In this document: in pieces, positions 3,451-37,355 of the stretch
Numbering within the stretch: position 1 is the stretch's first letter
How the letters are laid out: each line of letters starts with the position of its first letter
DNA from: Halobium salinum
GTDB lineage: Archaea; Halobacteriota; Halobacteria; Halobacteriales; Haloferacaceae
Assembly (NCBI RefSeq): GCF_026586625.1
Contig: NZ_JAODIW010000006.1
Span: 754,927-818,926, forward strand
Reading direction: 5' to 3'
DNA: 64,000 nt
Position numbers and translations under genes: made by a program
Notes under the pieces: generated by a model
The model's database searches: none
What the model was told of the DNA's origin: nothing
What the model saw: the letters and a program-made list of their open reading frames with translations, nothing else

Positions 3451-3840
3451 ATGGACGAGATATCACTCGGCGTACCGCGACCCATCCTCGACTCGCTCCC
3501 GGCCGACGACGACGTGGCCGGACAGGACATGCAGCGCGCCGTCGCTGGCATCGAGGAGTCGGTCAACCGCGTGATTCGTGAGACGGGCGACGAGACGGCC
3601 GTCGCCGAACGGGTGGCTGACGTGCTCGAGCGATTGGAGTCGCAGGCCGAACGCTACGACGAGTTCGTCCCCGAGATGCGGGCGTGGGGGCAGTCGCCCA
3701 TCTACGCTATCGCGTGGCGAAACCTGCAGTTGGACCTCGTCGGACAGATTATGGAGGTCGACTGGCTGGCCGAACATTTGGACCGCGAGCGTAACTCGCG
3801 GCTCGTTGAGGACGGGATTCGGTTCGGAAAGCGCGACTGA
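3451..3840 (+). CDS. Hypothetical acidic haloarchaeal protein, helical
   Basis: A 129-residue soluble protein, probably all alpha-helical, with heptad-like stretches between residues 25 and 75 (VNRVIRETGDETAVAERVADVLERL written as two helices). It ends with basic FGKRD. ATG at 3451 is ten bases after an out-of-frame ATG and ~25 bases after a T-rich TATA-like element at 3421-3427, so leaderless expression is likely. No catalytic motif or membrane segment is visible. I do not recognise the family. It converges with the DUF7521-like gene ending at 3854. Confidence 0.6.
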   Translation: MDEISLGVPRPILDSLPADDDVAGQDMQRAVAGIEESVNRVIRETGDETAVAERVADVLERLESQAERYDEFVPEMRAWGQSPIYAIAWRNLQLDLVGQIMEVDWLAEHLDRERNSRLVEDGIRFGKRD

Positions 3841-6568: not shown

Positions 6569-7651
6569 ATGAGCGAGAGCGAACCCAGCCCGGAGGTCTA
6601 CGAACGGGGCCGCGGGATGGACGCGCACAATCAGGTGATGCGCGACATCCGGTCGGAGAAGGAGAAGACGTACGACCCCCACGAGCCCACGCGAGTCTGG
6701 ATCGACGAGGACAACACGCCCGACGGCGTCCGCCAGTCCCTGACCATCATCCTCAACACCGGCGGCTGCCGGTGGGCGCGCGCCGGTGGCTGTACGATGT
6801 GTGGCTACGTCGCCGAATCGGTGGAGGGTGGCTCCGTCGCCCACGAGGCGCTGATGGACCAGATTGGAGTGTGTCTCGACCACGAAGCCGAGGAGGCCGA
6901 CGAGCCCTCCGAACTCATCAAAATCTACACCTCCGGGTCGTTTCTCGACGAACGCGAGGTCGGCGCCGAGACGCGCGACGCCATCGCCGAGACGTTCGCG
7001 GACCGCGAGCGCATAGTCGTCGAGTCCCTCCCGGACTTCGTCGACGTCGACAAACTCGAGGACTTCACCGAGCGCGGCCTCGAGACGGACGTGGCGGTCG
7101 GTCTGGAGACTGCAACCGACCGCGTGCGCCACGACTGCGTGAACAAGTACTTCGACTTCGCGGACTTCGAGGCCGCCTGCAAGTCGGCCGCCGAGGCCGA
7201 CGCGGGCATCAAGGCGTACCTCCTGATGAAGCCCCCGTTCCTCTCGGAGCCCGAGGCGCTCGAGGATATGAAGTCCTCCGTCCGCCGATGCGCCGCGGTC
7301 GACAACTGCCACACGGTGTCGATGAACCCCTGTAACGTCCAGCGCTACACGATGGTCGACGAACTCCACTTCGCGGGCGGCTACCGTCCGCCGTGGCTCT
7401 GGTCGGTCGCGGCCGTCCTGGAATCGACGGCCGACGTCGACGCCATCGTCGTCTCGGACCCCGTCGGCCACGGCTCCGACCGGGGACCCCACAACTGCGG
7501 CGACTGTGACGACCGCGTCCAGACGGCCATCAAGGACTTCGACCTCCGACAGGACCCGTCGGTGTTCGAGCAGGTCTCGTGTGAGTGTGAGGCGACCTGG
7601 GAACACGTCGTCGAGGAAGAGTCGAGTTACGCCGCACCGCTGGTTCGGTAG
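6569..7651 (+). CDS. Archaeosine biosynthesis radical SAM protein RaSEA
   Basis: A 360-residue radical SAM enzyme. The N-terminal signature is LNTGGCRWARAGGCTMCGY (about residues 53-71), whose three cysteines bind the [4Fe-4S] cluster in the Elp3/MiaB-like spacing seen in RaSEA proteins. Further conserved blocks are IYTSGSFLDEREV, VESLPDFV, GLETATDRVR and YLLMKPPFLSEPEAL. The C-terminal third holds extra cysteines (HNCGDCDD and VSCECEATW). RaSEA works with ArcS: ArcS makes a lysine-preQ0 tRNA intermediate and RaSEA cleaves it to archaeosine. arcS lies at the left edge of this window. ATG at 6569 precedes a hydrophilic leader typical of haloarchaeal orthologues. Confidence 0.88.
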   Translation: MSESEPSPEVYERGRGMDAHNQVMRDIRSEKEKTYDPHEPTRVWIDEDNTPDGVRQSLTIILNTGGCRWARAGGCTMCGYVAESVEGGSVAHEALMDQIGVCLDHEAEEADEPSELIKIYTSGSFLDEREVGAETRDAIAETFADRERIVVESLPDFVDVDKLEDFTERGLETDVAVGLETATDRVRHDCVNKYFDFADFEAACKSAAEADAGIKAYLLMKPPFLSEPEALEDMKSSVRRCAAVDNCHTVSMNPCNVQRYTMVDELHFAGGYRPPWLWSVAAVLESTADVDAIVVSDPVGHGSDRGPHNCGDCDDRVQTAIKDFDLRQDPSVFEQVSCECEATWEHVVEEESSYAAPLVR

Positions 7652-26991: not shown

Positions 26992-27134
26992 ACCGGCACT
27001 GGACGGGCAACCGAGAAAAAACCCTCCGCGAGGGTCGAAGACCCGCCGCACCCTTCGGAGTGGTGGGTCCGGCAGAACCCCCACGCCGTGCCGCGGTGGA
27101 CACGCTTTTGCCGACGCCCCACCGACGACGGCGT

Positions 27135-28253
27135 GTGTTCCCCGCGGCCGAAGAGTACGACATCGACATCGCGGTCGACGACGCCGAGGTCGAGCGCCTG
27201 CTCTCCGTCGGTCCCGCGGACGTGGACGCCGCCCCTCGCCTCACCTACGCGCGGAACGTGTTCCTCCCGCTGACGACCGCCTGCCGCTACACCTGCACCT
27301 ACTGCACGTTCTACGACGTGCCCGGACAGGCGACGCTGATGTCTCCCGAGGACGTCCGCGAAACCCTGCGGATGGGCGCCGACGCGGGCTGTACCGAGGC
27401 GCTGTTCACCTTCGGCGACGAACCCGACGAGCGCTACACCGAGATTCACGCGCAGCTGGACGAGTGGGGGTACGACGACATTCTGGAGTACCTGTACCGG
27501 GTCTGTGAAATCGCGCTCGAGGAGGGGCTCCTCCCGCACTCGAACCCCGGCGACCTCACGGAGGCCGACTTCGAGCGCCTGCGGGAGGTGAACGCCAGCA
27601 TGGGGACGATGCTGGAGACGACCGCCGAGGTGCAGGCACACTCGGGTGGGCGCCGTAAGACGCCCGGCCAGCGCCTCAACACCCTCCGCGCGGCCGGTCG
27701 GGCGAAGGTACCCTTCACCACCGGCATCCTCGTCGGCATCGGCGAGTCCTGGCGCGACCGCGCCGAGAGCCTGCTCGCCGTCCGCGAACTCCACGAGCGT
27801 CACGGGCACGTCCAGGAGGTCATCGTCCAGAACGTCGTCCCCAACGAGCGCTCGGCCTTCGAGACGCCCGACCTGGAGACGATGCGCCGGGTCGTCGCGA
27901 TGGCCCGCGCCGCGCTCCCGGAGGCGGTGTCCGTGCAGGTGCCGCCGAACCTCTCGCCGGCCCGCGACCTGCTCGACTGTGGCATCGACGACCTCGGCGG
28001 GGTCTCCCCCGTCACCGACGACTACGTCAACCCGGACTACGCGTGGCCCGCCCTGCGGGAACTCGAGTCGATTGCCGACGACGGCGGCGTCCCGCTCGGT
28101 GAGCGGCTTCCCGTCTACGACCGGTTCCTCCCCGAGGACCCTGACGCGCCCGCCGCCGAGTGGGAGTGGACCGGAGAACCGGTTCGCGAGGCGATGCGGG
28201 CCGACGACGACGCGGGTCGGCGGTACCGGTCGCTGGTCGACGGGTGGACGTAG
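27135..28253 (+). CDS. cofG: F0 synthase subunit CofG (radical SAM)
   Basis: A 372-residue radical SAM enzyme. The cluster motif is ACRYTCTYCTFYD (about residues 53-65, CxxxCxxC). With CofH it makes 7,8-didemethyl-8-hydroxy-5-deazariboflavin (F0), the chromophore of F420. Other blocks: ALFTFGDEPDERY, LPHSNPGDLTEADF, SMGTMLETTAEV, PFTTGILVGIGESWRDR and QEVIVQNVVPNERSAFE. A GTG start at 27135 (FPAAEEYD follows) matches family N-termini better than the in-frame upstream start. cofH lies at 30146-31582 on the other strand. Confidence 0.93.
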   Translation: MFPAAEEYDIDIAVDDAEVERLLSVGPADVDAAPRLTYARNVFLPLTTACRYTCTYCTFYDVPGQATLMSPEDVRETLRMGADAGCTEALFTFGDEPDERYTEIHAQLDEWGYDDILEYLYRVCEIALEEGLLPHSNPGDLTEADFERLREVNASMGTMLETTAEVQAHSGGRRKTPGQRLNTLRAAGRAKVPFTTGILVGIGESWRDRAESLLAVRELHERHGHVQEVIVQNVVPNERSAFETPDLETMRRVVAMARAALPEAVSVQVPPNLSPARDLLDCGIDDLGGVSPVTDDYVNPDYAWPALRELESIADDGGVPLGERLPVYDRFLPEDPDAPAAEWEWTGEPVREAMRADDDAGRRYRSLVDGWT

Positions 28254-30145: not shown

Positions 30146-31582
30146 TCAGTCGTCCGCCCGCGCGCCCGCGGCCGCGTCCTTGGCGTGCCGACCGAGCAAC
30201 GGGGTGCCGTCGGCCTCCGGCCCGAGGCGGGGGCCGTGCGGTCCGTCGTCGGGGTCGATGCGGCGTCGCGTGCGGTAGTCGGTCGAGCGTTCGACCGGGA
30301 CGCGCCCGATGGCCGAGACCATCTCCACGTAGTCGTCGAACGAGCGGAACTCGCCGTAGCCGCCGCCGGCGCGGGTGGTGATCTCCTCCGAGAGGATGGT
30401 CCCCATGAAGTCGTCGGCGCCGCAGTTGAGCAGTTTGAGCGCCTTCGCGTCGCCGAACTTCACCCACGAGGACTGGATATGGTCGATATTGTCGAGAAAG
30501 AGCCGGGAGACCGCGATGACGAGTTCGTCCTCGTCGTCGCTCGCGCCGCCGGTGACGAGTCCGCGCTCGTACAGTGGGGTGTTCCCGTGGACGAACGAGA
30601 GCGGGACGAACTCCGTGATGGCGCCCGTGCGGTCCTGGAGGTCGCGAATCTCCTTCAGGTGCATGGCCCGGTGCATCTCGTTCTCGACGTGACCGTACAT
30701 CATCGTGGCCGTCACGTCGAGGCCGGCGGCGACCGCTCCCTCCATCCCGACGAGCCATTCGTCGGTGCCGATTTTGCCGGGGCAGATGACTTCGCGGACT
30801 TCGGGAACGAGAATCTCGGCGGCAGTGCCGGGCACCGACGCGAGACCGGCGTCGGCTATGCGTCGATACACGTCCTCGTAACTCCAGTCGGTGCCGCGCT
30901 TCGCGTGGTACGCCTCCTCCGGCGTCATCGAGTGGACGTGTGCGCCCGTCTCCGACATCGCCCGAATCTGGTCGGTGTAGCTGCCGGGGTCCGTGTCGTA
31001 CACGGCCGGCGGTTTGTAGTCGACCTGTTGGGCCGGCCGGTCGTACGACTCGAGAACCTCCCGGTGTTCCTCGTCGAGGACGAGCGCGGGGTGGAGTCCC
31101 GAGACGGAGGTGACCTCGTAGACGCCGCGCTCGACCGCGTCGGCGACGACCTCCCGGGACTCCTCGACGGTCTTCGTGAACCCCGTGTGTTCGCCCTCGT
31201 AGTCGGACTCGAACTGGTGGGCGGTGTTCTTGAAGTTGCAGAACAGACAGCCGGTGTTACAGGCGGTGGTGACGTTGTTGTTGACGTTGGCGACGAACGT
31301 CACCTCCTCGCCGACGACCTCCGCCCGGCGGCGGTCGGCAGCCTCCAACACCTGTTCCTTTCTGACGGGGTCTATCCCGTCCCGGTCGGTCCCCGTCGTC
31401 AGCAGTTCGACCCCGTCGTCCACCGTGAGTCGGTCGCCGTCGCGCGCCTTCGCGAGCGCGTTTTCGAACGACTGGTCCGTCTCCGGGACGTGTACGAAGT
31501 CGAACTCCTCCGGCGTGCCGGCGGCGGCGCTGGCGTCGTCCTCGGCGTCTCCGGGGGGTGCGGAGGCGGCGGGGTCGGTCAT
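30146..31582 (-). CDS. cofH: F0 synthase subunit CofH (radical SAM)
   Basis: A 478-residue enzyme that joins tyrosine and 5-amino-6-ribitylaminouracil in F0 synthesis. The radical SAM motif is TACNTGCLFCNFKNT (about residues 107-121). Blocks VTSVSGLHPALVLDEE, YTDQIRAMSETGAHVHSMTP, VPGTAAEILVPEVREVICPG and ATMMYGHVENEMHRAMHLK are CofH/MqnC-like; ALKLLNCGADDFMGTILSEE closes the barrel. The ~40-residue N-terminal extension is Ala/Asp-rich and the tail is extra, both common in haloarchaea. ATG 31582. It is 1.9 kb from cofG, on the opposite strand. Confidence 0.93.
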   Translation of the reverse strand: MTDPAASAPPGDAEDDASAAAGTPEEFDFVHVPETDQSFENALAKARDGDRLTVDDGVELLTTGTDRDGIDPVRKEQVLEAADRRRAEVVGEEVTFVANVNNNVTTACNTGCLFCNFKNTAHQFESDYEGEHTGFTKTVEESREVVADAVERGVYEVTSVSGLHPALVLDEEHREVLESYDRPAQQVDYKPPAVYDTDPGSYTDQIRAMSETGAHVHSMTPEEAYHAKRGTDWSYEDVYRRIADAGLASVPGTAAEILVPEVREVICPGKIGTDEWLVGMEGAVAAGLDVTATMMYGHVENEMHRAMHLKEIRDLQDRTGAITEFVPLSFVHGNTPLYERGLVTGGASDDEDELVIAVSRLFLDNIDHIQSSWVKFGDAKALKLLNCGADDFMGTILSEEITTRAGGGYGEFRSFDDYVEMVSAIGRVPVERSTDYRTRRRIDPDDGPHGPRLGPEADGTPLLGRHAKDAAAGARADD

Positions 31583-31729: not shown

Positions 31730-32008
31730 ATGGAACTCGAACTCCGCTTCTTCGCGACCTTCCGGGAGGCGGTCGGCACCAAAGTCGTCTCCCGCGAAGT
31801 CGACGACGGCGCCACCGTCGGCGACGTGCTGCACGAACTCGAGGCGTCGTACGACGGGTTGGAGGGCCAACTCGTCGAGGACGGCGACCTCCGCCCACAG
31901 ATAAACGTCCTGAAGAACGGCCGTGAGGTGCTGCACATGGACGGGATGGACACCACGCTGGAGGACGGCGACTCACTGTCGGTGTTCCCGCCGGTGGCCG
32001 GCGGATGA
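31730..32008 (+). CDS. samp1: Ubiquitin-like small archaeal modifier SAMP1/MoaD type
   Basis: A 92-residue beta-grasp protein ending in VFPPVAGG. The C-terminal Gly-Gly is the site that UbaA adenylates, for isopeptide linkage to proteins or for carrying sulfur in molybdopterin synthesis. MELELRFFATFREAVGTKV is the MoaD/SAMP1 N-terminus and LEDGDSLSVFPP the last strand. In Haloferax SAMP1 does both jobs. TATA-like CTTTTTACG lies 35-40 bases upstream. The next gene overlaps by four bases. A pterin-dependent aldehyde oxidoreductase lies 3.5 kb downstream. Confidence 0.9.
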   Translation: MELELRFFATFREAVGTKVVSREVDDGATVGDVLHELEASYDGLEGQLVEDGDLRPQINVLKNGREVLHMDGMDTTLEDGDSLSVFPPVAGG

Positions 32009-32304
32009 TCGGCGACGACGTGGGCGAGGGCTCCCGGCGCGAGAAGTCCTACCGCGGCATCTCCCAGCGCCTCGCCGCCCACTACCTCGGAAACCTCGGC
32101 GGCGAGGCGGTGAGCGAGGGCGACGAGGGCACCGTCGACGCCGTCGAGGGCGACGGCTGGTCGGCCGACCTGTCGAGCGAGAAAGTCGAGGTCGGCCCCT
32201 CGGTCACACTCACCGAGGTCACCGTCGTCTTCGCGGGCGACCCCGAGACGCTGGACGAGTTGGTGAAGAAGTTCTCGCAGAAGGCGATGCGGGCCGGAGG
32301 GTAG
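32005..32304 (+). CDS. SAMP1-linked protein with C-terminal Gly-Gly
   Basis: A 99-residue protein overlapping samp1 by ATGA (32005-32008). Sequence features: basic start (RREKSYRGISQRLAAHYLGN), then a beta-rich middle (EVGPSVTLTEVTVVFAG) and a helix ending KKFSQKAMRAGG. The terminal Gly-Gly resembles the SAMP tail, which may be chance. It may correspond to the C-terminal domain found fused to MoaD-like proteins in some bacteria (Thermus); this is from memory and unverified. Tight coupling implies joint function with SAMP1. Confidence 0.7.
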   Translation: MIGDDVGEGSRREKSYRGISQRLAAHYLGNLGGEAVSEGDEGTVDAVEGDGWSADLSSEKVEVGPSVTLTEVTVVFAGDPETLDELVKKFSQKAMRAGG

Positions 32305-32305
32305 C

Positions 32306-32704
32306 GTGACGGACGGCGACGGGGGTGGTAGCGACAACTCCGGCGGGAGCGAGCACCCGATCGAGGGGCAGGTACTCCTGCTGACGGCCGCGAAGGCGAG
32401 CGTCGGTCCCGGCGCGCTCCCCGACCTCCTCACGCGGGTGCAGGCGGACCTCGGCCCCCGAATCGAGGAGTACCGTCGGCGCTACGAACTCGCCAGTGAG
32501 GACGACGGGCGGGCAACCTTCTTCGTCGAACCCGACCACTGGGACGCCGTCGGCGACCGACTGGGGTTCGGGCGCCGCGAGACCGACGCCGTCCGCCGCG
32601 CCCACGAGGAACAGCTTCGGCGGGTCGGCTCACGAACGGACCGGCGCGACGAGTTCGAGACGGCCCTAGAACTGCGGGCCGCGGCGGTGGTCGGCCTCGA
32701 CTGA
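32306..32704 (+). CDS. Hypothetical protein, third gene of the samp1 cluster
   Basis: 132 residues from GTG at 32306, one base after the preceding stop, so in the same operon. N-terminal Gly/Ser/Asp-rich linker (residues 1-16), then EGQVLLLTAAKASVGPGALP and helical DLLTRVQADLGPRIEEYRR; the C-terminal half is acidic/basic helical (DAVRRAHEEQLRRVG). I recognise no domain. It ends before the short gap ahead of the SIMPL gene at 32776. Confidence 0.6.
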   Translation: MTDGDGGGSDNSGGSEHPIEGQVLLLTAAKASVGPGALPDLLTRVQADLGPRIEEYRRRYELASEDDGRATFFVEPDHWDAVGDRLGFGRRETDAVRRAHEEQLRRVGSRTDRRDEFETALELRAAAVVGLD

Positions 32705-32775: not shown

Positions 32776-33380
32776 ATGAACGACAGAACCGTCAGCACGA
32801 CCGCGACGGGGCGCGCCGCCGGCCACCCAAATAGGGCCGAACTCAAGCTCTCGGCGGAGGCCGTCGACCCGGAGCCCATGGCCGCACGGCGCGCCGTCGG
32901 CGGCCAGTCCGTCGCGCTCAGGCAGAGCCTCCGAGAGGCGGGCGTCCCCGACGACACGGTTCGAACGAGCGAGTTCCGAATCGTCCGGCGACCGAGGCGA
33001 CCCGAACGACCGGAGCGGTCGGAGGCGGCCGACGAACCCGACCCCTACACCGCGACGGAGTCCGTGCACGTGACAGTCGCCGACCCGGACGACGTCGGGC
33101 CGGTTCTCACCGGCGCCGTCGACGACGCGGGCGTCGGCGTCGACGAGGTGACGTTCACCTTCTCCGAGGAGCGCCGCGCCGAACTCGTCCGGACGGCCAC
33201 CCGGAAGGGGGTCGCCGTGGCGCGACGGCCGCCGACGCGCTGGCGCTCGACGTCACCGAGCGGAGTCGAACTCGACAGCGCACGTCCGGGCTGGCGCTGG
33301 ACACGGCGGAGGACGTCGGTCCGTCGAGCGGACCGGTCGAGGTCGTCGTCGCGGTCGACGCCACGTTCCGACTGGACTGA
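32776..33380 (+). pseudogene. SIMPL/DUF541-like gene with a frameshift
   Basis: From ATG 32776 the frame encodes a SIMPL-like start (VSTTATGRAAGHPNRAELKL; VRTSEFRIVRR) and a second domain half (TATESVHVTVADPDDVGPVL; VDEVTFTFSEERRAELVRTA). After about 33215 it becomes Arg/Pro/Ser-rich, while the +2 frame there gives the expected end: SGLALDTAEDVGPSSGPVE then VVVAVDATFRLD and stop at 33378-33380. One base is missing (or two added) relative to an intact gene. It could be a real mutation or a sequencing error. Confidence 0.6.
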
Positions 33381-33600
33381 GCGCGGCAGTCGCGGAAGGT
33401 GGGCTGGAGGACCGCGGAGCCCTTGGCGACGACGACGAGGAACTGCACGTAGGCGTCGGAGTGCTTCGGCGCCCGGCGGTGTGGCCCGCCGTGGCTCATC
33501 ACGACCGCCGGTGCCGTCTCGCCGGGTGCGGCGCCGGCCGGTTTCGGGCGCCGTACCGGAGCACGCCGATGTCGCGCCCGTCTACCGGTTCGCGGGCGAC
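33377..33600 (-). pseudogene. Remnant of an S9 (prolyl oligopeptidase-type) peptidase
   Basis: On the minus strand the frame reads PGETAPAVVMSHGGPHRRAP then SDAYVQFLVVVAKGSAVLQP and TFRDCRA. This matches the strand-turn core of acylaminoacyl/prolyl oligopeptidases (pattern VVMxHGGP, then AVLQPNFRG). Just upstream another minus frame gives EPVDGRDIGVLRYGARNRPA, like the preceding family block. So only a shred of the catalytic domain persists, split by a frameshift near 33540, with no Ser-His-Asp region. It overlaps the end of the frameshifted SIMPL gene by four bases. Confidence 0.55.
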
Positions 33601-33634
33601 CGCGGTCGCCCCAACTCGCCGTCGTCCGACCCGC

Positions 33635-35011
33635 TCAGTTCGAGGTCGGTAGCGAGAGGTCTCCCGGCTTCACGACTTCGACCTTCCCCTGGTCCCGGTA
33701 GTTCGCGACGTGCTTGCACATCTTGCGGAACTCCGAGGGCGTGTTGACGAACTGGTCGCCGCCGTCGACACCGTGGAGGAACGGCGTGTAGAGCCCGCGG
33801 TAGGCCGCCACCTCGTCGAGCTGGTTCTTCACCGCTGCGGGCGTGTTCGGCCGTGAGCGGTTGACGAACGCCGGCTCGAACAGCGTCGACTGTGACAGCC
33901 CCTTCTCGCTCCCCCTGAACGCGAGGAACCCGTAGTCGTGGTACTCCGTGACGAGTTCGAACGTGTTGCGGTCGCAGGCGCCGCCGGGGTACATGAACGC
34001 CCGCACGTCGCCGAAGCCCATCTCCTGGAGCTGTTGCTTGGTGTACTCTATTTTCTTTCGCTGTGTCGCGCGGTCCATCCCGTAGAGGTTCTGGAGGTCG
34101 TTACTGTGGCTGGCGATCTCCCAGCCGGCGTCCGAGAGCTCCTGCAACTGCGCCTCCGAGAGGCGACCGCTGTCGCCGAGGAGGTCGACCGGAACGGCGG
34201 CGACCCCCTGTAGGTCGAACTCCTGCATGATGGGGAAGATTTCGTTGTACAGCGACGGGGTGATGTCGTCGAACGTCAGCATCACCTGTCCCTTCTTCGC
34301 CATCTTGTCGTGGAAGAGCAGTTCGTCGACGTTGTACGTCGGCGCCGTCGACCCTCGCCCGTCGACCGTGATGAGCATCGACTCGATACCCCCGAGGTTG
34401 CGCTGGTACGCGTCGTTGATGGAGGGGTTGATGCGCAGCCACCCGCTCGGGTGGTTCTGGCTGATCTGCTGGATGAGCTTGATGGTCTTCCCCCCGGTGT
34501 CCTGCATCCAGATTCGGACGTTCGTCGGTCGGGGCTCCTCCAATCTGATGGCTATCGAGAGGTCCCGATTCGAGAGGTCGAGCGGCACCGGAAAGTCCCG
34601 ACGGATGGTCCCCGGTCCACCCTGGACGCGGAACGACTGCTCCCCGCCGTAGACGGTCTCCGTGTCCGCTTTCATCGTGACGTTGTTGTCGGGTTCCCAC
34701 GCCGAGACGTCCTCGAATCCGGCCGCCTTCGGAATCATCGGCTCGTAACTCCCCGGGGCGTCGCCCGAGGGTTGGGGAGTGTCGCTCCCCTCCTCGCCGG
34801 CGGACTCGTTGCCGGCGGACTCGTTGCCGGCGGTCCCGTTTCCGGTCGTCGTTCCGGCTGTCGGCGTAGCCGTCGTCTCCGTCGCCGTCGTTCCGTTCTC
34901 GGTGGTCGTCCCACCGGAGCCCTCGCTGCTACATCCTGCCAGTCCCACCAGGCCGGCCACGCCAAGCGCCTTGAGGTACGCCCGGCGGTTCTGCCGTCGG
35001 TCACCGTCCAT
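33635..35011 (-). CDS. Polysaccharide deacetylase-family lipoprotein (CE4)
   Basis: A 458-residue Tat lipoprotein: RRAYLKALGVAGLVGLAGC (lipobox Cys27), then a Thr/Gly/Glu-rich linker including near-identical 5-residue units (GNESA repeated; DNA 34795-34840 repeats in 15-base units). Residues 85-215 form a beta-sandwich-like module. The NodB domain follows with motif 1 VMLTFDD (about residue 240) and motif 2 IASHSND. It should act on cell-surface glycans. A TATA-like GATAATAAA (35038-35046, minus strand) is 27-35 bases ahead of the start, so the mRNA is leaderless or nearly so. Confidence 0.87.
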   Translation of the reverse strand: MDGDRRQNRRAYLKALGVAGLVGLAGCSSEGSGGTTTENGTTATETTATPTAGTTTGNGTAGNESAGNESAGEEGSDTPQPSGDAPGSYEPMIPKAAGFEDVSAWEPDNNVTMKADTETVYGGEQSFRVQGGPGTIRRDFPVPLDLSNRDLSIAIRLEEPRPTNVRIWMQDTGGKTIKLIQQISQNHPSGWLRINPSINDAYQRNLGGIESMLITVDGRGSTAPTYNVDELLFHDKMAKKGQVMLTFDDITPSLYNEIFPIMQEFDLQGVAAVPVDLLGDSGRLSEAQLQELSDAGWEIASHSNDLQNLYGMDRATQRKKIEYTKQQLQEMGFGDVRAFMYPGGACDRNTFELVTEYHDYGFLAFRGSEKGLSQSTLFEPAFVNRSRPNTPAAVKNQLDEVAAYRGLYTPFLHGVDGGDQFVNTPSEFRKMCKHVANYRDQGKVEVVKPGDLSLPTSN

Positions 35012-35420: not shown

Positions 35421-37355
35421 CTAGTCGTCTGCCGGCGCGGCCGAGTCACCGCTACTTACACCGGTGCCGGGGCCGATGTCGATGCCGAGGTCGTCGAGCT
35501 TCTCGTCGGGGACGACGCCGTCGACCCAGCCGCGGTGTGCGTAGTACTCCTCTTTCATCTCGTCCAGCTCACACAGCTCGCCCTCGCTCGCGCCCTGACC
35601 GGGAACGGCGTTCTCGTTGCCCTTCACGAAGCGGTCCGGCAGGGAGTCGTCGTCGCCGTCGAAGCCGGCGAGGTTGTTGTAGTACCGTTCGAGGGTGTAG
35701 ATGCGCTCGCCGGTCTCCATCAGCTCGTCCTCGGTCACGTCGAGGCCGGTCATCCCGTTGTACTGGAGGACGTACTCCTCGATGCCCTCCGCGAACGCGT
35801 TGAACTTGCAGATGTCGAACGAGTCCGAGATGGCGTGGAGGTCCTGGAACGTCGCCGCGAGTTCGCCCTTCCCCTCGTACGCGTAGGGGTCGACCTTCTC
35901 CGGGAAGCCGAGGATTTCGGCCGACGGCGTGTACGCCCGTAGGTGGCAGGCGCCGCGGTTCGAGGTGGCGAAGCCGATGCCCATCCCCTTCATGCAACGG
36001 GGGTCGTACGCCGCGATGGACTGCCCCTTCACGTCGAGGCGGCAGTCGTGGGCGTCCTTCGCCTCCGCGACGCGACGCTGGCCCTCCGCGAGCAGGTCGG
36101 CGAGGTCGTCCTCGCGCTTTCCGATGCGGGTGATGAGTTCGACCATCGTGTCGGCGTCGCCCCAGTCGATGCCGTCCCCGAGGTCGTCGAGGTACCCCTT
36201 CTCGGTCATCTCCATCGCCATCGCCATGATGTTACCCACCTCGATGGTGTCGACCCCCATGTCGTTACAGCGGTCGATCATCACGGCGATCTTGTCGCGC
36301 TCGGTGTGCTGGGAGTTCGGCCCGAGCGCCCACGCGGACTCGTACTCGTAGGACTCCATCCGGACGTTCATCTCCTCGCCCTTCACCGTCGCGGAGGTCT
36401 CGACCTCCTTCTTGCAGGCGACCGGACAGGAGTGACAGGTCGGCTCGTCGACGAGGATGTTCTCGCGGACGTTCTCCCCCGAGACCTCCTCGGAGTCGAT
36501 GTCGCTTCCGGTGTCGTCGTCGAACGAGCGCGTCGACGTGTACTTCCCGTTCTTCGTCGGGAGTCCGTCCATCTCCTCGGTGATGTTCATCAGGACGTTC
36601 GTCCCGTACATCGAGAGGCCGCCCTCGTTCGGGGCGGTCACGTCGGACTCCTGGATGACCTGCATCGCCTGCTGGTACCCCTCCTGGAACGTCTCGGGGT
36701 TCTTCGGCTTGGGCATCTTCGTGCCGGACTTGACGACGACGGCTTTGAGCCCCTTGTTGCCCATCACACAGCCGGTGCCGCCCCGGCCCGAGGCGCGGTC
36801 GTCCTCGTTCATCACGCAGGCGTAGCGCACCTCGTTCTCGCCGCCGGGGCCGATGGCCATCACGGAGAGGTTCTTGCCGACGCTCCCCTCCACTTCCTCG
36901 CCGAGCCCTTCGATGGTCTCGTGGACGCCCGTCCCCCAGTAGTCGGAGGCGTCGCGGAGTTCGACCTCGCCGTCCTCGACGAACGCGTAGACGGGGTCGT
37001 CGCTCTGTCCCTCGAAGACGAGGCCGTCGAAGCCCGACCACTTGAGTCGCGCACCGGACCAGCCACCGTGGTGCGAGTCGGTGACGGTCCCGGTGAGCGG
37101 CGACTTCGTACAGAGCGCGATGCGACCGCTCATCACGGTCTGGGTGCCCGTCAGCGGGCCGGTCATGAACGCGAGCACGTTCTCCGAGCCGAGCGGGTCG
37201 ACGTCCGGGCCGGCGTCGAACACGTACTTCACACCGAGGCCGCGGGCGCCGATGTACTTCTTCGCGTCCTCGTCGTCGATTCCCTCGTAGTTCACGTCAC
37301 CCGACGACAGGTCGACGCGAGCCACGCGGTCCTGGTAGCCGCCCATTTCTGTCAT
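35421..37355 (-). CDS. Aldehyde ferredoxin oxidoreductase family enzyme
   Basis: A 644-residue tungsten/molybdenum bis-pterin enzyme oxidising aldehydes to acids with ferredoxin. N-terminal blocks (VDLSSGDVNYEGIDDEDAKK; IGARGLGVKYVFD; VLAFMTGPLTGTQTVMSGR) form the cofactor-binding domain. The [4Fe-4S] site is CHSCPVACKKE (about 312-322) with a fourth Cys in SFDICKFNAF (about 530). The Asp/Gly-rich N-terminus after GARG and GTGCVMGNKGLKAVVV fit the family. Start ATG 37355; the upstream minus strand carries AT-rich AACCATA/AACCATG direct repeats near 37353-37377. It needs MoaD/SAMP1-dependent pterin synthesis; SAMP1 lies 3.4 kb away. Confidence 0.9.
   Translation of the reverse strand: MTEMGGYQDRVARVDLSSGDVNYEGIDDEDAKKYIGARGLGVKYVFDAGPDVDPLGSENVLAFMTGPLTGTQTVMSGRIALCTKSPLTGTVTDSHHGGWSGARLKWSGFDGLVFEGQSDDPVYAFVEDGEVELRDASDYWGTGVHETIEGLGEEVEGSVGKNLSVMAIGPGGENEVRYACVMNEDDRASGRGGTGCVMGNKGLKAVVVKSGTKMPKPKNPETFQEGYQQAMQVIQESDVTAPNEGGLSMYGTNVLMNITEEMDGLPTKNGKYTSTRSFDDDTGSDIDSEEVSGENVRENILVDEPTCHSCPVACKKEVETSATVKGEEMNVRMESYEYESAWALGPNSQHTERDKIAVMIDRCNDMGVDTIEVGNIMAMAMEMTEKGYLDDLGDGIDWGDADTMVELITRIGKREDDLADLLAEGQRRVAEAKDAHDCRLDVKGQSIAAYDPRCMKGMGIGFATSNRGACHLRAYTPSAEILGFPEKVDPYAYEGKGELAATFQDLHAISDSFDICKFNAFAEGIEEYVLQYNGMTGLDVTEDELMETGERIYTLERYYNNLAGFDGDDDSLPDRFVKGNENAVPGQGASEGELCELDEMKEEYYAHRGWVDGVVPDEKLDDLGIDIGPGTGVSSGDSAAPADD

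Follow-up and report, generated by a model that had tools for sequence, protein, structure and literature searches.

The window analysed here, a stretch of 64,000 nucleotides from the haloarchaeon Halobium salinum, contains three short genes packed head to tail on the forward strand. An aldehyde ferredoxin oxidoreductase gene on the opposite strand converges on them, and a fourth small gene, which belongs with them in other genomes, is placed far from them in this one. The features are the following:

31730-32008, plus strand: SAMP3 orthologue, as judged from sequence comparison; MoaD/ThiS family, 92 residues, ending PPVAGG (ThiS, E 7.6e-17)
32005-32304, plus strand: putative TBP-like/DUF1952-type partner, 99 residues, ending KAMRAGG (fold model, tail and census)
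32306-32704, plus strand: third gene, 132 residues, GTG start; its family, of unknown fold, comes after the 99-residue gene
3451-3840, plus strand: 129-residue gene whose orthologues often stand upstream of SAMP3 elsewhere (profile match, E 1e-56)
35421-37355, minus strand: aldehyde ferredoxin oxidoreductase, 644 residues (AFOR_C, E 9e-118; AFOR_N, E 1.3e-72)

The three short frames are found exactly where the original prediction had placed them. The SAMP3 gene and the gene of the 99-residue protein overlap by the four bases ATGA, and the GTG of the third gene, at 32306, stands one base past the TAG of the second. The oxidoreductase, for which 37355 is a likely start inferred from its relatives, is convergent with the SAMP3 genes. 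Its 3' end (35421) is 3.4 kb from the end of the SAMP3 gene, which agrees with the distance given in the original prediction when measured end to end.

Other genes were noted in the surroundings. CofG and CofH of F420 synthesis, each above an NCBIfam CofG/CofH cut-off, flank the region at 27060-28253 (plus strand) and 30146-31582 (minus strand). After the third gene comes a DUF541 (SIMPL) gene (32776-33747) whose frame is seemingly lost past about 150 residues; a similar gene with an intact frame follows the module at locus L011 (2148-2828). The window also carries the archaeosine radical SAM protein RaSEA at 6569-7651 (plus strand), and at locus L197 the oxidoreductase has as its neighbour a radical SAM gene about as long as RaSEA.

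The first gene had been labelled SAMP1, which turned out to be wrong. Among PDB sequences its best match is 2m19 (E 8.5e-41), which we take to be HVO_2177 of Haloferax volcanii, and HvSAMP1 is matched at only 5.5e-13. The product is 72% identical to HVO_2177 (66 of 92 residues) versus 43% to HvSAMP1. A separate protein of the same genome, encoded 207 kb along the same contig and ending PPVSGG, is itself 72% identical to HvSAMP1. With this low identity and a separate SAMP1 in the genome, an assignment of the first gene as the orthologue of HVO_2619 is ruled out. HVO_2177 is known as SAMP3 (PMC4500146), and by sequence comparison the product of 31730-32008 is its orthologue. The NCBIfam model NF041918, named 'SAMP1', scores the first gene at 112.6 bits against a cut-off of 60; consequently, automatic annotation may call SAMP3 genes SAMP1. 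The same genome also encodes a ubiquitin-like protein with a Cys-Cys end (FMFCC; locus L134, frame ending near 1620, G000:C11:1402721), which resembles the CC-ending arCOG00539 group described in PMC2948915.

The 99-residue family is present in 223 of 292 haloarchaeal genomes. A wider search, through 392 genomes of the phylum, found matches in 60, all of them in the order to which the window belongs, and a scan of genome contigs returned one locus only. Relatives were met in three haloarchaeal plasmid records and in none of the viral contigs searched. The loci compared below were drawn from the best-scoring matches and then widened by 12 more divergent genomes; duplicate stretches were dropped before counting, nine short loci giving way to longer ones and L044 being from the same genome as L031.

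The C-terminal end of the protein is strikingly uniform. The tails were read in about 100 of the 223 carrier genomes. All 90 distinct homologous frames end in [MI]RAGG directly before the stop codon, and so do the 12 later stretches from more divergent genomes, two of which have RAL or RGV in place of RGI; relatives in two further genomes end KAVRSGG. In view of the 90 frames and the later divergent stretches, the terminal Gly-Gly is not a matter of chance, and the proposal that the tail should recur in orthologues held. Residues R17, G18, I19, R22, Y27, L28, W52, V61, F76, K93, A94, R96, A97, G98 and G99 are invariant in all 41 sequences of the alignment (A1). Four paralogues were found away from SAMP genes; three of them end in FRASG, FRAPG and FRAPG, while a TAG interrupts the fourth:

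Paralogues of the 99-residue protein apart from SAMP genes: L191, 1615-1956; L192, 1680-2021; L193, about 2089; L190

These tails suggest, from as few as four paralogues, that the Gly-Gly is kept near SAMP3 and lost elsewhere.

The second Gly-Gly protein had been proposed as a possible further ubiquitin-like modifier or a mimic of the SAMP tail, and structure prediction speaks against a beta-grasp fold. Single-sequence scans of the 99-residue protein against Pfam, NCBIfam and PDB gave matches at chance level only. An AlphaFold2 model (pLDDT 82, pTM 0.70, from an alignment of two sequences) has the elements E10-17, H21-30, E34-38, E44-49, E52-64, E67-78 and H80-98, i.e., a beta-alpha-beta4-alpha arrangement, in which the tail caps the long helix of residues 80-98 and forms no flexible extended arm. 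The best PDB match of the model in Foldseek is 1v8c, the MoaD-related protein of Thermus thermophilus (E 9.4e-4, probability 1.00, query TM 0.64), and the domain matched is not of the grasp type. A second aligner, VIA, also places 1v8c first (Z 11.6, the next entry having 7.9), with an rmsd of 7.0 over 88 residues and a chain range of 49-165 that extends partly into the N-terminal domain. A fold that is not beta-grasp counts against a second classical ubiquitin-like modifier.

Sequence searches add weaker traces of the same relationship. The relative at locus L061 has 1v8c residues 92-168 as its sole PDB sequence match (E 0.59, weak); the alignment is collinear across the whole domain and sets RAGG opposite the terminal RGGG of 1v8c. 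A profile of 41 relatives missed 1v8c and had a designed protein as its best PDB match (E 0.042). The Pfam model DUF1952, to which we take 1V8C to belong, matches 5 of the 41 relatives weakly (best E 3e-4) and gives no match for the protein of the window. With a cut-off of 22 bits, the L061 protein scores 18.3 and the relative in genome G037 scores 20.1; the cut-off was reached in none of the 392 genomes. PF09189 returned mostly short sub-threshold pieces over the same 392 genomes, with two full-length matches (G037 and G040), both at loci of the 99-residue family. Among 14 named control genomes the DUF1952 model matches only Thermus composti and Haloferax volcanii, and these two, together with three other controls, have the oxidoreductase domain. 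Another candidate, DUF5376 (17 of 41 relatives, best E 0.002), was dropped because the fold search and one end-to-end sequence match favour 1v8c. DUF1952 and HVO_2178, the latter assumed from its number to be the neighbour of HVO_2177, were without mention in the literature searched, outside which most subscription papers lay.

The model and the 1v8c matches indicate that the 99-residue protein most likely corresponds to the C-terminal domain of a Thermus-type MoaD protein, present as a stand-alone copy. The likeness to 1V8C includes the fold, the order of a MoaD part ending PPVAGG followed by the domain, and the terminal glycines. The two differ in that two genes are found here and one chain there, with a sequence similarity that stays under the Pfam cut-off.

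The family has been seen before. Makarova and Koonin listed arCOG06308 in 2010 as a possible analogue of ubiquitin-like proteins: a family with a TBP-like fold and a C-terminal GG, confined to Halobacteria, which adjoins a MoaD-like gene and two small uncharacterized genes (PMC2948915). The 99-residue family shares each of these features, namely the predicted TBP-like fold, the GG end, the restriction to Halobacteria and, as neighbours, a MoaD-like gene with two small genes, and by these matching features it is almost certainly arCOG06308. On the other hand, the identity of the MoaD-like protein as SAMP3, the oxidoreductase link and the SAMP3 fusions described below are not stated in the available part of that account. 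Within the literature searched, which left most subscription papers outside, arCOG06308 is named in PMC2948915 only.

Two further small families accompany the pair formed by SAMP3 and the 99-residue protein. The 132-residue family occurs in 58 of 61 stretches taken one per genome, in all 58 on the strand of the 99-residue gene. A census at genome level, covering 18 genomes with the pair and 22 without it, found this family in 17 of the former (it is absent from G235) and, among the latter, strongly in one (G076) and weakly in two. The 129-residue family, which is upstream of SAMP3 in many genomes and 28 kb away in this window, was found in every one of the 18 genomes with the pair; the 22 without it gave no strong match and two weak ones. 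We take these families to be, probably, arCOG06307 and arCOG06309 of the 2010 paper. Genome G076 carries its 132-residue gene at C6:244693-245022 (L194) and has no match for SAMP3, the 99-residue gene, the 129-residue gene or the oxidoreductase; the gene is likely a remnant after loss of the module. The AlphaFold2 model of the 132-residue protein (pLDDT 51) is too poor for interpretation.

SAMP3 and the 99-residue protein belong together, as the original prediction had supposed for the two neighbours. SAMP3 (E <= 1e-18) is present in 226 of 292 genomes, comprising all 223 with the 99-residue family and three without it (G020, G044 and G087), whose SAMP3 matches are weak (E 5e-20 to 1e-19). The two proteins are moreover joined in some genomes. 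In 61 loci, one per genome, the SAMP3 C-terminus is an exact AGG in 30, is followed by 1-27 extra residues in 21 and continues in frame through a linker into the 99-residue domain in 6; in the remaining 4, SAMP3 falls outside the stretch. SAMP3 is thus extended or fused in 27 of 57 readable loci, whereas the tail of the 99-residue protein is extended in none of the 90 frames. In the fused proteins the sole free end is RAGG; in 1v8c it is RGGG. Locus L014, a candidate for a fusion of the SAMP3 domain, has a 15-residue extension instead and was ruled out. At locus L040 (870-1709, reverse-complement coordinates), of family f4, SAMP3 and the 99-residue gene are separated by a gene for a permease-like protein (AzlC-like by eye), and several other f4 loci have a gap of more than 1 kb between the two.

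Residues after the Gly-Gly are not a peculiarity of SAMP3, as SAMP1 is extended too: its orthologues (L165-L188) carry 1-12 such residues in 9 of 22 readable loci out of 24. Processing before activation may therefore be common. Each of the 22 genomes examined, the six with fusions among them, has a JAMM-family gene (PF14464), and HvJAMM1 cuts a linear SAMP1-MoaE fusion (PMC4443979).

The pair is also associated with the oxidoreductase. The census took in 75 of the 223 genomes with the pair and every one of the 69 without it, and detected the oxidoreductase domain in 75 of 75 versus 1 of 69 (36 of 36 versus 1 of 36 in a first batch, then 39 of 39 versus 0 of 33). The exception, G131, has two oxidoreductases of a lower-scoring group (about 285 bits) and neither SAMP3 nor the 99-residue protein. 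The independence of this co-occurrence is that of the nine genera in which both states exist (g3, g7, g24, g26, g27, g32, g48, g54 and g69), and the oxidoreductase tracks the pair in each of them. MoaE was considered as a tracked partner and rejected, being present irrespective of the pair in 71 of 72 genomes (36 of 36 with it and 35 of 36 without it).

The genes also tend to be close. In the 64 of the 75 genomes with a placed 99-residue gene, distances measured between domain matches put the oxidoreductase within 5 kb in at least 40 and within 15 kb in at least 50; these counts are a lower bound, since each genome contributed between one and three oxidoreductase positions. The 50 layouts are convergent in 42 cases, divergent in 5 and on the same strand in 3, and the other 14 genomes yielded no oxidoreductase within that distance. 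In genome G156 (L196) an oxidoreductase of the lower-scoring group lies directly upstream of SAMP3 on the same strand, and G159 and G080 have same-strand copies upstream too. The oxidoreductase that had been singled out as a neighbour is consequently relevant to the pair, at genome level as well as by position, and the link fits the role in pterin sulfur transfer that had been suggested.

The presence of the 99-residue protein and SAMP3 almost only where the oxidoreductase is found suggests that the pair helps to build its cofactor. There is precedent for such an association. The nearness of archaeal MoaD-type genes to oxidoreductase genes has been remarked on in general terms (PMC2948915), and a MoaD-oxidoreductase fusion is known in Azoarcus (Iyer and colleagues, PMC1779556). 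In Haloferax, DMSO reductase does not depend on SAMP3 (PMC4443979), and molybdenum-dependent growth does without it. In Thermococcus kodakarensis UblB acts in tungsten-cofactor synthesis and the UblC gene adjoins an aldehyde:ferredoxin oxidoreductase gene (PMC11323500). UblB and UblC thus resemble the system described here as MoaD-type carriers tied to tungsten enzymes, but the available text of that paper mentions no TBP-like GG partner for them. It is the only paper in the literature searched, with most subscription papers outside the search, in which SAMP3 and aldehyde ferredoxin oxidoreductase occur together. A role of Haloferax SAMP3 with this oxidoreductase was not found in the literature searched, nor was the oxidoreductase link of the 99-residue family found in print.

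The locus is therefore best read, with somewhat better than even confidence, as a carrier module that serves specifically the oxidoreductase's pterin cofactor, with SAMP3 as the carrier and the 99-residue protein as its accessory domain. The gene structure, the identity of SAMP3, the fold match, the conserved tail, the fusions, the co-occurrence and the nearness to the oxidoreductase are observed; we infer the sulfur transfer, the client specificity, the binding of SAMP3, the docking of the tail, the use of tungsten and the processing by JAMM. SAMP3 and the 99-residue protein would be two halves of one carrier. UbaA would activate the C-terminal glycine of SAMP3 and load it with sulfur. Then SAMP3, with MoaE, would give the dithiolene sulfur for the pterin of aldehyde ferredoxin oxidoreductase, while the 99-residue protein would bind SAMP3 and steer it to the oxidoreductase client. 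The fixed RAGG end would dock in a pocket of a partner—UbaA, MoaE or the apo-oxidoreductase—and would not be freely conjugated. Where SAMP3 is extended past its Gly-Gly or fused, a JAMM protease would first free its glycine.

The literature on Haloferax volcanii SAMP3, to which the 92-residue protein of the window is 72% identical, gives a different emphasis. There, unlike in the reading proposed for the window, SAMP3 is described as a protein modifier, isopeptide-linked to MoaE (PMC4443979, PMC7305310). This means that regulation could be its principal function; alternatively, SAMP3 could have an additional, regulatory function through its attachment to MoaE.

The invariant Gly-Gly raises the question of whether the 99-residue protein is itself activated. 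It would then be a carrier or modifier in its own right, with UbaA adenylating its RAGG end, and the pair would offer two tails for thiocarboxylate formation or conjugation on two folds. The tail closes the protein in all 90 frames, unextended, next to a SAMP3 that is extended or fused in 27 of 57 loci; it has lost its Gly-Gly (ASG, APG, APG) in three paralogues unlinked to SAMP; it is the sole free end of the fusions, as RGGG is in 1v8c; and the family was proposed as a ubiquitin-like analogue in 2010 (PMC2948915). The model, however, has the tail capping the long helix 80-98, without a flexible arm, and no conjugate of the protein was met in a literature search that was not aimed at conjugates. 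An activated tail is possible though unlikely. A specific form of it is doubtful: two activatable diglycine ends on unrelated folds, each contributing one thiocarboxylate, could supply the two dithiolene sulfurs of the oxidoreductase pterin.

SAMP3 and the 99-residue protein could on the contrary form a module mainly for conjugation or inhibition, which silences MoaE or the oxidoreductase, the 99-residue tail mimicking that of SAMP and blocking the glycine pocket. SAMP3 is joined to MoaE at its active-site lysine and is no substitute for SAMP1 in DMSO respiration (PMC4443979). Such a module is nevertheless improbable, as MoaE is independent of the pair (71 of 72 genomes) whereas the oxidoreductase tracks it, and a TBP-like domain is fused to MoaD in a bacterium too (1v8c). 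That the pair merely shares a mobile or ancestral cluster with the oxidoreductase, with no joint function, is very improbable: neighbouring genes do travel together, and 14 of 64 genomes have no oxidoreductase found within 15 kb, but the co-occurrence holds at genome level even when the genes are far apart and in nine mixed genera, the relative orientations are three, and fusions exist.

The dedicated carrier module thus remains the preferred reading, and it leaves the question of why a fold other than that of ubiquitin keeps a strictly terminal Gly-Gly. If both ends of the pair were activatable, a carrier tail on a fold other than beta-grasp would have been kept from bacteria to archaea. The GG-ending family listed in 2010 gains a place in the cell's biology and a link to the solved Thermus structure. 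The near-perfect match with the oxidoreductase across the haloarchaeal genomes examined points to a likely original job for SAMP3.
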